This document shows, one piece after another, positions 1 to 64,000 of a DNA stretch of 64,000 nucleotides (within the stretch, counting starts at the first letter, position 1; each line of letters starts with the position of its first letter). Source of the stretch: Microbacterium sp. LWS13-1.2 (lineage in GTDB: Bacteria; Actinomycetota; Actinomycetes; Actinomycetales; Microbacteriaceae). The translations under genes and the position numbers were made by a program. The stretch lies in NCBI RefSeq assembly GCF_040144835.1, contig NZ_CP151632.1, positions 62,001-126,000 of the forward strand. The letters run 5' to 3'. Below the pieces are notes generated by a model. That model was not told the DNA's origin. It did not search any database and saw only the letters and a program-made list of their open reading frames with translations.

Positions 1-1
1 G

Positions 2-580
2 TGGGATGCCGGCGCCGGCGCCGCGTGGCGAGAGACGTTCGCGATCGCTCCGCCCGGCGGGCGGCGTGTGCCGTGGACCGGGATGCTGGTGCTGGTCGTC
101 TCGCTGCTCATCGGCGTCGTGAGTCACATCGTGTGGGACCTGTTCACGCACGAGGGCCGGTGGGGCACGATTGCGATCCCCGCGCTCGCGGCGGACTGGG
201 GAGCGCTGCCCGGCTACAAGTGGCTGCAGCACGGGTCGAGCGTGGCCGGTCTCGCGATCATCGGCGTGTGGATGCTGGTGTGGCTGGGCCGACGACCGGC
301 CGCGGCATCCGTTCCGCGCGTTCTGGCCGATGCCGTGCTCTGGGCGTGGTGGGTCTCGCTGCCCGTCGTGCTCGCGGTGGCCTGGGCGTGGGGCCTCGCG
401 GTGCACGGTCCGCTCGACGCCGAGTTCACCGCCGCGCATCTCGCGTACCGGGTGCTTCCGCCGGCGTGCGCGGTGTGGGGTGCGTCGACGGTGGTCGTGT
501 GCATCGTGATCCAGGTGCTGCGCCGGCGCACGGTCTCGAAGGGTGTTCACAGTGAGAACCGCGGAATCACGGGGCTCTAG
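2..580 (+). CDS. DUF4184 family membrane protein, C-terminal part
   Basis: The frame is already open at the left edge, so the true start lies upstream and about 192 C-terminal residues are visible. They contain several strongly hydrophobic segments and the motif SHIVWDLFTHEGRW, which is typical of DUF4184 integral membrane proteins. The conserved His, Asp and His residues sit in a membrane helix. No enzymatic role is established for the family. The last 15 residues are basic and polar, consistent with a cytoplasmic tail. The gene ends about 210 bp upstream of the rRNA promoter and has no visible link to the rRNA operon. The family call is from motif recognition and is fairly secure; the function is unknown. 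Confidence 0.7.
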   Translation, partial: WDAGAGAAWRETFAIAPPGGRRVPWTGMLVLVVSLLIGVVSHIVWDLFTHEGRWGTIAIPALAADWGALPGYKWLQHGSSVAGLAIIGVWMLVWLGRRPAAASVPRVLADAVLWAWWVSLPVVLAVAWAWGLAVHGPLDAEFTAAHLAYRVLPPACAVWGASTVVVCIVIQVLRRRTVSKGVHSENRGITGL

Positions 581-1055
581 ACCGACGACACGCCCGGGAT
601 GTGGAGTGGATTCGACGGCGGGGGCGGTTCGGCGTAATGTTCTTGTTGTTCGCCCCAAAGGGTAGAGCGGAAGGCCGGAAGGCCTGGCTCCCCTCAAGCA
701 GTGAACGACCTCCACTCCTGAAGATCCGCTTCACGGATCGTCCGCTTGCGGACAGGTGTGGAACCTCGTTCGAGGAGATCCGGTCGATTTGACGGGATCG
801 CTTCGGCGAGATAAGATAGTGAAGTTGCCCAGCGGCGAAGGTTGAGAGACCGGAACGTTGGTGCGTCCGATCTTTGAGAACTCAACAGCGTGCACTTGTC
901 AAATGCCAATTTTTGTATCCTCGCTGACCATTTGTTTGGTTGGTGGGGGTCCTTTTTGGATCAATTCATGGATGTCAGTTTGATATTCGTTTTTGGTCAT
1001 GGTTGAACTCGCTGCTTCTTGTCCCTTTTTCCGGGGTGGGTTTGCAGTATTCATT
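581..1055 (+). promoter_or_regulatory. rRNA operon upstream region and leader
   Basis: This stretch of about 475 bases has no convincing gene. It holds the rRNA promoter at 789-817, followed by a leader of about 230 nt that becomes AT-rich towards the 16S 5' end. The leader contains the box TTTGAGAACT at 873-882. The same box recurs in the 16S-23S spacer at 2893-2902. Repeated boxes of this kind in rRNA leaders and spacers normally belong to the antitermination and processing signals. Confidence 0.7.
789..817 (+). promoter_or_regulatory. rRNA operon promoter
   Basis: A near-consensus housekeeping-sigma promoter is visible: -35 TTGACG at 789-794, a 17-nt spacer, and -10 TAAGAT at 812-817. It is the best promoter match in the window and lies about 240 bases before the 16S gene, as expected for a strong rRNA promoter. 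No second promoter of equal quality is seen in this leader. Confidence 0.85.
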
Positions 1056-2580
1056 TTTTATGGAGAGTTTGATCCTGGCTCAGGATGAACGCTGGCGGCG
1101 TGCTTAACACATGCAAGTCGAACGGTGAAGCCCCGCTTGCGGGGTGGATCAGTGGCGAACGGGTGAGTAACACGTGAGCAACCTGCCCCTGACTCTGGGA
1201 TAAGCGCTGGAAACGGCGTCTAATACTGGATACGAACCGCAGCCGCATGGCTCGTGGTTGGAAAGATTTTTTGGTTGGGGATGGGCTCGCGGCCTATCAG
1301 CTTGTTGGTGAGGTAATGGCTCACCAAGGCGTCGACGGGTAGCCGGCCTGAGAGGGTGACCGGCCACACTGGGACTGAGACACGGCCCAGACTCCTACGG
1401 GAGGCAGCAGTGGGGAATATTGCACAATGGGCGAAAGCCTGATGCAGCAACGCCGCGTGAGGGACGACGGCCTTCGGGTTGTAAACCTCTTTTAGCAAGG
1501 AAGAAGCGAAAGTGACGGTACTTGCAGAAAAAGCGCCGGCTAACTACGTGCCAGCAGCCGCGGTAATACGTAGGGCGCAAGCGTTATCCGGAATTATTGG
1601 GCGTAAAGAGCTCGTAGGCGGTTTGTCGCGTCTGCTGTGAAATCCCGAGGCTCAACCTCGGGCCTGCAGTGGGTACGGGCAGACTAGAGTGCGGTAGGGG
1701 AGATTGGAATTCCTGGTGTAGCGGTGGAATGCGCAGATATCAGGAGGAACACCGATGGCGAAGGCAGATCTCTGGGCCGTAACTGACGCTGAGGAGCGAA
1801 AGGGTGGGGAGCAAACAGGCTTAGATACCCTGGTAGTCCACCCCGTAAACGTTGGGAACTAGTTGTGGGGTCCTTTCCACGGATTCCGTGACGCAGCTAA
1901 CGCATTAAGTTCCCCGCCTGGGGAGTACGGCCGCAAGGCTAAAACTCAAAGGAATTGACGGGGACCCGCACAAGCGGCGGAGCATGCGGATTAATTCGAT
2001 GCAACGCGAAGAACCTTACCAAGGCTTGACATACACGAGAACACCCTAGAAATAGGGGACTCTTTGGACACTCGTGAACAGGTGGTGCATGGTTGTCGTC
2101 AGCTCGTGTCGTGAGATGTTGGGTTAAGTCCCGCAACGAGCGCAACCCTCGTTCTATGTTGCCAGCACGTAATGGTGGGAACTCATGGGATACTGCCGGG
2201 GTCAACTCGGAGGAAGGTGGGGATGACGTCAAATCATCATGCCCCTTATGTCTTGGGCTTCACGCATGCTACAATGGCCGGTACAAAGGGCTGCAATACC
2301 GTGAGGTGGAGCGAATCCCAAAAAGCCGGTCCCAGTTCGGATTGAGGTCTGCAACTCGACCTCATGAAGTCGGAGTCGCTAGTAATCGCAGATCAGCAAC
2401 GCTGCGGTGAATACGTTCCCGGGTCTTGTACACACCGCCCGTCAAGTCATGAAAGTCGGTAACACCTGAAGCCGGTGGCCCAACCCTTGTGGAGGGAGCC
2501 GTCGAAGGTGGGATCGGTAATTAGGACTAAGTCGTAACAAGGTAGCCGTACCGGAAGGTGCGGCTGGATCACCTCCTTTC
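1056..2580 (+). rRNA. rrs: 16S ribosomal RNA
   Basis: The gene opens with the universal GAGAGTTTGATCCTGGCTCA region and ends with the anti-Shine-Dalgarno CACCTCCTTTC. The 515-533 loop (GTGCCAGCAGCCGCGGTAA) and the 1492-1510 region (AAGTCGTAACAAGG) are intact. The short V1-V3 hairpins and overall sequence look like Microbacterium or a close Microbacteriaceae relative. Mature ends are placed by analogy and may shift by a few bases. It is complete and about 1525 nt long. Confidence 0.97.
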
Positions 2581-3033
2581 TAAGGAGCACCTGAATCCTC
2601 TTCGGGGGGTTCCAGGACCCAGTACCACACCGACTGTGTGTGGCTGGGGCTCAGGGTGGAACATTTGACATGGCATCAGCGCAGCTGGTTCCTACTAGTA
2701 CGCCGCGTCTCTTCGGGGGTGTGGTTGGAGGGTGGGGGTTGGTGAGCGGGGTGCCTGCACGCTGTTGGGTCCTGAGGGACCGGACGTTGCTGCTGTGATC
2801 TTTCCTTTTGGGGAGGGTTGTGGTGGTGGGTTTGACTCTCTGGGCTTCCTGGTTGCCGGCTGTTGCTGGTGGGTGGGGGGTACCGCCCGTACTTTGAGAA
2901 CTACACAGTGGACGCGAGCATCTTTTGGATCGGCCTTCGGGCTGGTTCATATTGATGATCTTAAAGATCATTAGTCAATTTCAGCCTGGACTTTATTGTC
3001 TGGGTTCGATTCTTGATGAAACTCATGTGATTT
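2581..3033 (+). other. 16S-23S internal transcribed spacer without tRNA genes
   Basis: These roughly 450 bases carry no tRNA-Ile or tRNA-Ala: I find no cloverleaf or T-loop GGTTCRA on the plus strand. The spacer is unusually rich in G and T on the plus strand in its middle part (about 2700-2890). It contains a second copy of the leader box TTTGAGAACT at 2893-2902, and an AT-rich run just before the 23S gene that is likely to pair with the 3' flank in the processing stem. Spacers lacking tRNAs are usual in Microbacteriaceae. Confidence 0.85.
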
Positions 3034-63457: not shown

Positions 63458-63640
63458 AGTCTTCTCCTGAAGTACGCGATTCACTGCCGGTTCACCGGCG
63501 CGACACCCCTTCGTGCCGGGTCCATGCTATCGATGACCCCTGTGAAGGTGCAGAATGATGGGCTCCCGTTGCCGATTCGTGACATAACGCGAATGCCGCG
63601 ACGCGGCGACACGGACTGCCCCACCATCAGGACCGCTTGA

Positions 63641-63646
63641 TACGTT
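63641..63646 (+). promoter_or_regulatory. -10 hexamer of the leaderless terminal gene
   Basis: TACGTT ends six bases before the GTG at 63653. Confidence 0.45.
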
Positions 63647-63652
63647 GGTTGG

Positions 63653-64000
63653 GTGACAGCCTCCCTCCCGGTGCCGAATGACATCGATCCGGAAGAGCCG
63701 GACCGTCACTCCGCTGCGAGCGTGATGCGCCTCGCCGAAACGGTACCGCCGGCTCCCGACAAGCCCCGCCGCCCGCCGCGCAAGCCTCGCTCCGACAAGG
63801 ACGCCCCGCGAAAGAAGCGCGCTCCGCGCAGTGCCGAGCCGCAGCCCGATCCCGGCCCGCCGCCGCCGCTTCCGAGCGATCTGGAGCTCGCTGCGAGCGC
63901 TGCCGCCGGGATCGTCGTTCCGCCGCGCCCGCCCCTTCCGCAGGTCGCCGACGTGCCGTCGGCCGATGCCCGACCCGCCCCCGCGGCGGAGCCCGAAGCG
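63653..64000 (+). CDS. Proline- and lysine-rich N-terminal region of a truncated gene
   Basis: The frame starts at GTG 63653 and stays open for 116 codons to the right edge. It begins MTASLPVPNDIDPEEP and is rich in Pro, Ala, Arg and Lys (KPRRPPRKPRSDKDAPRKKR), a disordered, basic N-terminal region of a larger protein. The neighbourhood suggests a wall-polymer exporter or transferase, but the visible part identifies nothing. The third codon position is strongly G/C, as in real genes here. Confidence 0.55.
   Translation, partial: MTASLPVPNDIDPEEPDRHSAASVMRLAETVPPAPDKPRRPPRKPRSDKDAPRKKRAPRSAEPQPDPGPPPPLPSDLELAASAAAGIVVPPRPPLPQVADVPSADARPAPAAEPEA

Follow-up and report, generated by a model that had tools for sequence, protein, structure and literature searches.

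A stretch of 64,000 nucleotides of Microbacterium sp. LWS13-1.2 (the window, bases 62,001–126,000 of the single 4.33-Mb contig) raises the question of why one short word, GGATGCC or its complement GGCATCC, is written so often along a bacterial chromosome. The original prediction, made from the window alone, offered a Chi-like site, an uptake sequence, a methylation target or a codon-pair effect as possible roles. We report that the word is a chromosome-wide, orientation-neutral DNA motif, and that different lineages enrich different words sharing GGAT. The window holds 84 copies of the heptamer, 44 forward and 40 reverse, against a mean of 15.0 in dinucleotide shuffles (largest 23; none of 100 shuffles reached 84), and by first-order Markov z-score the heptamer ranked first among the 7-mers of the window (84 against 14.9). 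The hexamer GGATGC/GCATCC, put by eye at about 115 copies in the original prediction, was counted at 128, with a shuffle mean of 57.5 (128 was reached in 0 of 100). The rRNA operon (1057–6357) contains one heptamer (3056) and two hexamers (3056 and 5753). In 464 kb of the genome, comprising the window and 20 further stretches of 20 kb, GGATGCC was again the top 7-mer by z-score, with 579 copies against 113, 129 and 162 expected from first-, second- and third-order Markov models. The whole genome contains 5,535 copies (1.28 per kb; 2,716 forward and 2,819 reverse), whereas the word read backwards, which is a rough control only, occurs 330 times; whole-genome counts are raw, without codon correction. 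The near-equality of the two orientations was borne out, and enrichment continued elsewhere in the genome. An uptake sequence should be present at the DNA level in hundreds to thousands of copies, far more than chance provides, and GGATGCC is.

Codon usage accounts for some of the raw excess, but most of it lies at the DNA level. Genes were called by our own G+C-position rule, without annotation, and DNA outside called genes takes in missed genes. In the coding DNA of the window, 65 copies were found against 24.3 in synonymous shuffles (largest of 200, 37), and in the coding DNA of the 464-kb sample 441 were found against 156 (standard deviation 11; largest of 20, 173) when synonymous codons were shuffled within genes. 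About one third of the coding count was reproduced in this way, and the codon-preserving shuffles on which the prediction could have foundered fell well short. All six frame and orientation classes were enriched, and the density outside called genes (1.17 per kb) was like that inside (1.25 per kb), which together place the excess mostly on DNA rather than on codons. Ala-Ser written GCA-TCC and Asp-Ala written GAT-GCC had been put forward as telling examples; the former class has the highest ratio of the six (87 copies against 6.1 expected) and the latter stands at 163 against 36.9, although the positions quoted for the examples deviate by as much as about 10 bases and the one at 31461 is the hexamer only. 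The proposal of selection on DNA rather than protein stands as far as the DNA-level excess is concerned, while selection is not separated from biased repair or conversion. That the motif is a by-product of codons, codon pairs or base composition has practically negligible probability. In its favour, synonymous shuffles gave more copies in coding DNA (156) than the first-order Markov model gave for all 464 kb (113), but the observed 441, the equal density outside called genes, the enrichment of all six classes and the enrichment of another word in congeners of similar G+C content all speak against it, and the codon-pair effect listed among the original roles is very unlikely on the same grounds.

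The copies showed neither polarity nor regularity. All placings of origin and terminus were tried (no dnaA was visible within the contig's first 5 kb), and the best of them co-oriented 55.5% of the 607 sites examined in 22 stretches, as compared with 55.6% (standard deviation 1.1) for random strands. The earlier statement that the word is not a strand-polar signal of the KOPS (FtsK-orienting polar sequence) kind therefore holds for any such placing. The even spacing that had been suggested as a check was not found, since the distances between GGATGCC sites were near random (coefficient of variation 1.05). Close pairs had a marked arrangement. Among 44 pairs no more than 40 bases apart in 484 kb, half (22) were head-to-head, and the rest were divided equally between tail-to-tail (11) and same-direction (11) arrangements, so that 33 of the 44 were inverted; several formed perfect or near-perfect hairpins. 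Of the 22 head-to-head pairs, 13 lay outside called genes, and for nine of these 13 a stop codon was no more than 20 bases away. Neisserial uptake sequences are reported to show such inverted pairs at the ends of genes (PMC3630211), a feature found here as well.

Comparison with other Microbacteriaceae, which had been proposed as a check, revealed further enriched words where GGATGCC is poor. Most of these dialect calls outside the source genome rest on 20–60 kb per genome, and lineages were judged from the tree of one conserved protein. GGATGCC is widespread in the family, several species poor in it are rich in other GGAT-containing words, and some members have none. Its copy number in 71 genomes of the genus ran from 697 (an incomplete genome) or 812 (the complete genome G043) to 7,116, and in 299 genomes of the family from chance level (genus g76, 2 of 2) to 7,429. 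The palindrome GGATCC divides Microbacterium sharply, with 6,067–8,244 copies in G043, G056 and G063 and 470–1,908 in the other 68 of the 71 genomes; it reaches 5,368–6,455 copies in 8 of 8 genomes of genus g62 and is also the dialect at loci of M. gubbeenense, M. azadirachtae and four other named records. GGATGCG is the word of G035, G004 and two named loci and is weaker in Herbiconiux and Diaminobutyricibacter; GGATGGC is that of G032, G038 and M. oryzae, GGATGCT that of G050 and one named locus, and CAGGAT(C) that of G195 and G288 (genus g35). Against synonymous shuffles, GGATCC was observed 309 times to 59 in genus g62 and 229 to 47 in the azadirachtae group, and the corresponding figures were 141 to 38 for GGATGCG, 121 to 45 for GGATGGC, 48 to 13 for GGATGCT and 53 to 15 for CAGGATC. 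GGAT is common to all six dialects, a constant core of the kind expected of uptake sequences, and the replacement of one word by an alternate between lineages is a property of the cyanobacterial highly iterated palindromes (HIPs). Because the two Microbacterium groups with GGATCC stand apart on the one-protein tree and g62 is another genus, this dialect occurs in at least three lineages.

No GGATGCC excess was seen at five loci of Curtobacterium, Frigoribacterium and Labedella (14 against 13.6), and none of the dialect words was enriched at the one M. gorillae locus; L138, one of eight rows labelled 'none', shows a weak GGATGCC excess (16 against 6). At six g62 loci (L216–L221) GGATGCC was rarer than in synonymous shuffles (17 against 44.5), as compared with 26 against 28.5 at eight motif-free loci, and avoidance of foreign dialects is a possible explanation. 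Some single records are listed for completeness. G248 (genus g36) has 2,680 copies of GGATCC in 1.9 Mb, and the core methyltransferase described below was not found in it; it is a possible fourth GGATCC lineage. G026 carries CCGGATG in a 17.8-kb contig. G223 was taken for a GGATCC genome from the 30.6-kb contig G223:C1, of which the first 20 kb (L056) hold 22 copies against 5.6 expected, and was rejected when its chromosome sample (L133) showed 8 against 8.5. Known plasmids matched this contig only over a short mobC-like segment, and it may be a mobile element that came from a GGATCC host.

The motif, its excess at the DNA level and its dialects are the secure part of this account. As to function, we lean tentatively, and with less than even confidence, towards a self-recognition tag that would work like a DNA uptake sequence, in uptake or in recombination. 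A sequence-specific DNA-binding protein of the import or recombination machinery would prefer fragments carrying the local word, tagged alleles would spread through the recombining core genome, and phages and recently acquired stretches would remain poorly tagged. A shift in the specificity of this reader could then lead to a slow rewriting of the genome at synonymous and intergenic positions, and so to a new dialect and a species barrier. Relative to synonymous shuffles, GGATGCC was enriched 2.85-fold in ordinary chromosome stretches (449 against 158), 1.60-fold in nine Microbacterium phages (184 against 115) and 1.49-fold in three low-motif chromosome stretches taken together (26 against 17). 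Nine proteins sampled from the last had the look of transport, sugar-catabolism, peptidase and surface-polysaccharide proteins (all NCBIfam matches were below the curated cut-off, and one protein was unmatched); these stretches may be recent arrivals. In the M. testaceum group (13 loci, 330 gene pairs with 85.6% nucleotide identity), 74% of motif occurrences (1,182 of 1,592) were conserved, while words matched to them in frame and G+C content reached 37%, a ratio of 1.98 for the motif as compared with 1.44 for the control word CGATGCC; in this test pairs are non-independent, each site is counted from both sides, and control words range from 0.08 to 1.64. ComEC, a DNA-import protein, was present in 28 of 28 genomes. 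As a side observation, GGATCC is missing from three phage stretches of 47.5–50 kb (Floof, MementoMori and Zeta1847), where about 21–24 copies each are expected from a first-order Markov model, and is near expectation in other Microbacterium phage stretches (within L267–L274); the phages without it look as if some hosts restricted that site.

A number of results weigh against such a tag. The motif is no denser outside called genes than inside, its spacing is not even, and the phages are still enriched. Retention, clear in the M. testaceum group, is unproven in the others: the ratio was 1.26 in the M. oxydans group against 1.29 for the control CGATGCC, and in the two GGATCC groups it was 1.40 (CGATCG 1.44, CTGCAG 1.64) and 1.15 (GGTACC 1.18). 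Biased uptake with graded specificity should enrich near-match words, as argued in PMC1939737. Words one base off were not clearly enriched in the source genome (observed/expected by position 1.21, 1.01, 0.95, 0.57, 0.70, 0.93 and 1.24), and the ratios in the M. testaceum group, 0.47–0.96, likewise lack the footprint of such a drive. ComEC and ComEA also occur in genomes without the motif, and ComEA, extracted in 24 of 28 genomes, showed no dialect pattern by eye. A PilB-type ATPase, so termed from match strength, was found in 6 of 18 dialect-rich genomes (GGATCC, GGATGCC or other) and equally in 6 of 18 GGATGCC-poor genomes, a class defined by that word alone and perhaps including holders of other dialects, and it was not found in the very motif-rich G009, G069 and G168; other T2SSE ATPases, in 36 of 36 genomes, do not discriminate. 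Judged from the PilB-type ATPase, which several motif-rich genomes did not yield, a type IV minor pilin like ComP is no general reader, the pilins themselves lying outside the search. No reader of the dialects emerged among the orphan methyltransferase, AdnA, ComEA/ComEC and the type IV pilus ATPases. On natural transformation in the genus, nothing was found in a literature search on uptake sequences in Actinobacteria and Microbacterium, and no wider search was made. The uptake sequence of the original prediction thus fits best in anatomy but is without a receptor among the candidates examined; because near-match enrichment is missing and the known type of receptor is no general fit, we liken the motif to a DNA uptake sequence and do not class it as one. 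More tentative again is a wider proposal, in which a GGAT-cored code for self DNA, with at least six dialects, would have evolved apart from the tags of Pasteurellaceae and Neisseriaceae and would operate in actinobacteria independently of type IV pili, and repeated shifts (GGATCC in at least three lineages) would set barriers to gene exchange. A Vsr-like repair process was also considered as the cause and was rejected, as no single near-match word was scarce in motif genomes alone: GGACGCC, GGAGGCC and GGACCC stood at 0.63, 0.35 and 0.53 in the source genome, but were likewise depleted, at 0.66, 0.49 and 0.54, in motif-free genomes.

The nearest rival system is that of the HIP repeats, in which an orphan methyltransferase would mark the motif. 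Repair, replication or another chromosome process that depends on methylation would then select or create the word, and the dialects would follow changes in the enzyme. We consider this possible but rather unlikely. An orphan methyltransferase of family PF01555, M.RsrI-like by match to a solved structure, adjoins LplA, and no restriction enzyme was seen among the eight open reading frames scanned near it. Within the genus, 67 of 71 genomes yielded the enzyme, as did 5 of 47 genomes from elsewhere in the order; across the family, 282 of 299 gave a match at E 1e-10 or better (11 of these only a weak, probably paralogous one). At the level of the protein family, PF01555 occurred in 20 of 20 genomes, with G026, G162 and G223 having only a different, weaker-matching protein. 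The C5 methylase family PF00145 occurred in 11 of 20 genomes and is absent from the source genome. Both genomes of genus g76 lack enzyme and motif alike, and replacement of cyanobacterial HIPs by alternates with a cognate methyltransferase is described in PMC4390886. In two separate GGATCC clades, all 8 rows have Q or E at a position (column 89) where the 88 remaining rows have an invariant glycine; the alignment, with its tree, covered 96 sequences from 100 loci, the search pattern having missed the enzyme in L133, L134, L135 and L212. This residue was posed as a predicted mark of the dialect reader, tried on new lineages and rejected, for the glycine is retained at 6 of 6 loci of genus g62, and G004 combines E with GGATGCG; the Q of G043 comes from one of the clades on which the mark had been based. 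Outside this position the enzyme is conserved from dialect to dialect, and its divergence relative to LplA showed no consistent excess in the switched lineages (p 0.048 and 0.58). The enzyme is present without the motif at loci of Curtobacterium, Frigoribacterium, Labedella and M. gorillae, and absent from 7 of 7 genomes of genus g74, where GGATGCC is yet 3.5–6.3 times as frequent as the reversed word, and from G058, G347 and G351, whose motif counts are high. These data do not support the orphan methyltransferase as dialect reader; for the methylation target of the original prediction, a conserved enzyme exists, but its variants do not track the dialects. Separately, L133 (G223) and L135 (G026), from two genera, appear to have one phage-type methyltransferase of 354 residues in common, a sign of a mobile element that the two have shared recently.

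It is unlikely that the motif is the site of another sequence-specific chromosome protein, for nucleoid organisation, replication or global regulation, whose specificity drifted between lineages. Its neutrality of orientation, its chromosome-wide distribution, its like density in and out of called genes and its weakness in phages and in the three low-motif stretches would suit such a site, but an essential architectural protein would not ordinarily be expected to have several dialects in one genus, together with losses in relatives. A Chi-like regulatory site of AdnAB is highly improbable. AdnA and AdnB are indeed encoded in the window, as originally stated, and AdnA, found in 30 of 30 genomes searched, evolves fast: copies within the genus share 48–80% identity with that of the source genome and are far more variable than LplA or the orphan methyltransferase (the window copy and L236–L264). 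Nevertheless, the motif lacks polarity, GGATCC is palindromic, and no AdnA column was common only to the three GGATCC lineages in the 29 of 30 genomes aligned, a weak test, as twelve comparison sets also gave none.

Table 1. Coordinates of motif copies, motif pairs and other features (window positions unless a locus is given).
Feature	Position	Strand	Remark
GGATGCC, first bases	4, 3056, 6435, 8733, 10241, 10276, 11105, 13803, 14233, 15007, 15164, 16629, 19201, 19634, 21365, 21577, 22280, 24446, 25871, 26954, 28280, 30166	+	part 1
GGATGCC, first bases	31494, 31783, 34794, 36356, 38924, 41952, 45044, 45807, 46342, 48456, 48842, 50202, 51741, 52685, 55001, 56335, 57806, 59754, 60172, 61900, 62320, 62526	+	part 2
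GGATGCC, lower coordinate	304, 9688, 10283, 14140, 14801, 18455, 19313, 19988, 20979, 21102, 23385, 26250, 29123, 30859, 31091, 32572, 33203, 33581, 37711, 38376	-	part 1
GGATGCC, lower coordinate	39653, 40217, 40610, 41254, 42280, 45191, 46577, 47895, 48899, 49556, 50189, 50999, 51891, 54462, 55017, 55155, 57026, 60519, 61393, 62519	-	part 2
Abutting head-to-head pair, GGATGCCGGCATCC	10276..10289		within called gene region
Tail-to-tail pair in hairpin-like inverted repeat	50189..50208		outside called genes; adjoins tRNA gene 50226-50299 (-)
Head-to-head pair in longer inverted repeat	55001..55023		outside called genes; closest suitable called stop codon 289 bases away
Abutting tail-to-tail pair, GGCATCCGGATGCC	62519..62532		
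AdnA, helicase-nuclease subunit	26319..29576	+	considered as Chi-type reader, not supported
AdnB, helicase-nuclease subunit	29402..32938	+	true start probably later than first start codon
REP-like element sites	L001 15097; L003 15319, 15433; L004 13001, 13054, 16889; L012 8876-8980; other G000 stretches		

Two other repeats were noticed. An interspersed element resembling REP (repetitive extragenic palindromic) sequences, approximately GGTCGTTGAGCGAGC...GAGACGAAACGC and often in facing pairs, occurs in G000 stretches and has no copy in the window. Its core GTCGTTGAGC was counted 44 times in the 22 stretches (484 kb), and 24 of these copies were followed within 60 bases by the end GA(G/C)ACGAAACG or GAGTCGAAACG. 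In L037 (G018), AAGCCGTA/TACGGCTT is strongly repeated within 20 kb (14 copies against 0.1 expected).

These findings matter because one genus offers several dialects side by side, with relatives that have switched or carry no tag, and Microbacterium species are mostly harmless and culturable. An identified reader would make dialect change, that is, how a genome alters its tag, accessible to genetics. The word of a strain may matter for transforming these bacteria, and stretches off dialect may mark acquired DNA. We know of no group other than the Pasteurellaceae and Neisseriaceae with a sequence-tagged preference for self DNA. The preference in those two families is described in PMC1939737, and among the literature matches listed none describes the motif or an uptake sequence in Microbacteriaceae.

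Among known systems, the Chi sites of RecBCD and AddAB are likewise over-represented, short and G+C-rich, and an AdnAB-type helicase-nuclease is encoded here, but the motif differs in its lack of replication polarity, its palindromic dialect and its several dialects in one genus. The uptake signal sequence (USS) of Pasteurellaceae has about one copy per kb, like the motif, and to our knowledge its receptor is not known. The USS is similarly orientation-neutral and found in many genes (PMC1939737), whereas the present motif is not evenly spaced and has many more dialects within one genus. HIP1 and the alternate HIPs of cyanobacteria share with the motif a density of 1,000–2,000 copies per Mb and the replacement of one word by another between lineages, and the GATC-centred alternate GGGATCCC is close to the GGATCC dialect (PMC4390886). 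The HIPs are palindromic octamers; GGATGCC is no palindrome, only the GGATCC dialect is one, as a hexamer, and the conserved methyltransferase here does not track them. From the DNA uptake sequences (DUS) of Neisseriaceae, which are read by the minor pilin ComP, the motif differs in having 6–7 rather than 10–12 bases, one palindromic dialect, a Gram-positive actinobacterial host, several motif-rich genomes in which a PilB-type ATPase was not found, and near-match words that are not clearly enriched. The likeness to the DUS lies in the thousands of copies, the absence of orientation bias and the inverted pairs at gene ends (PMC3630211, PMC1939737), and in dialects that combine variable neighbours with a constant core, CTG in Neisseriaceae and GGAT here.

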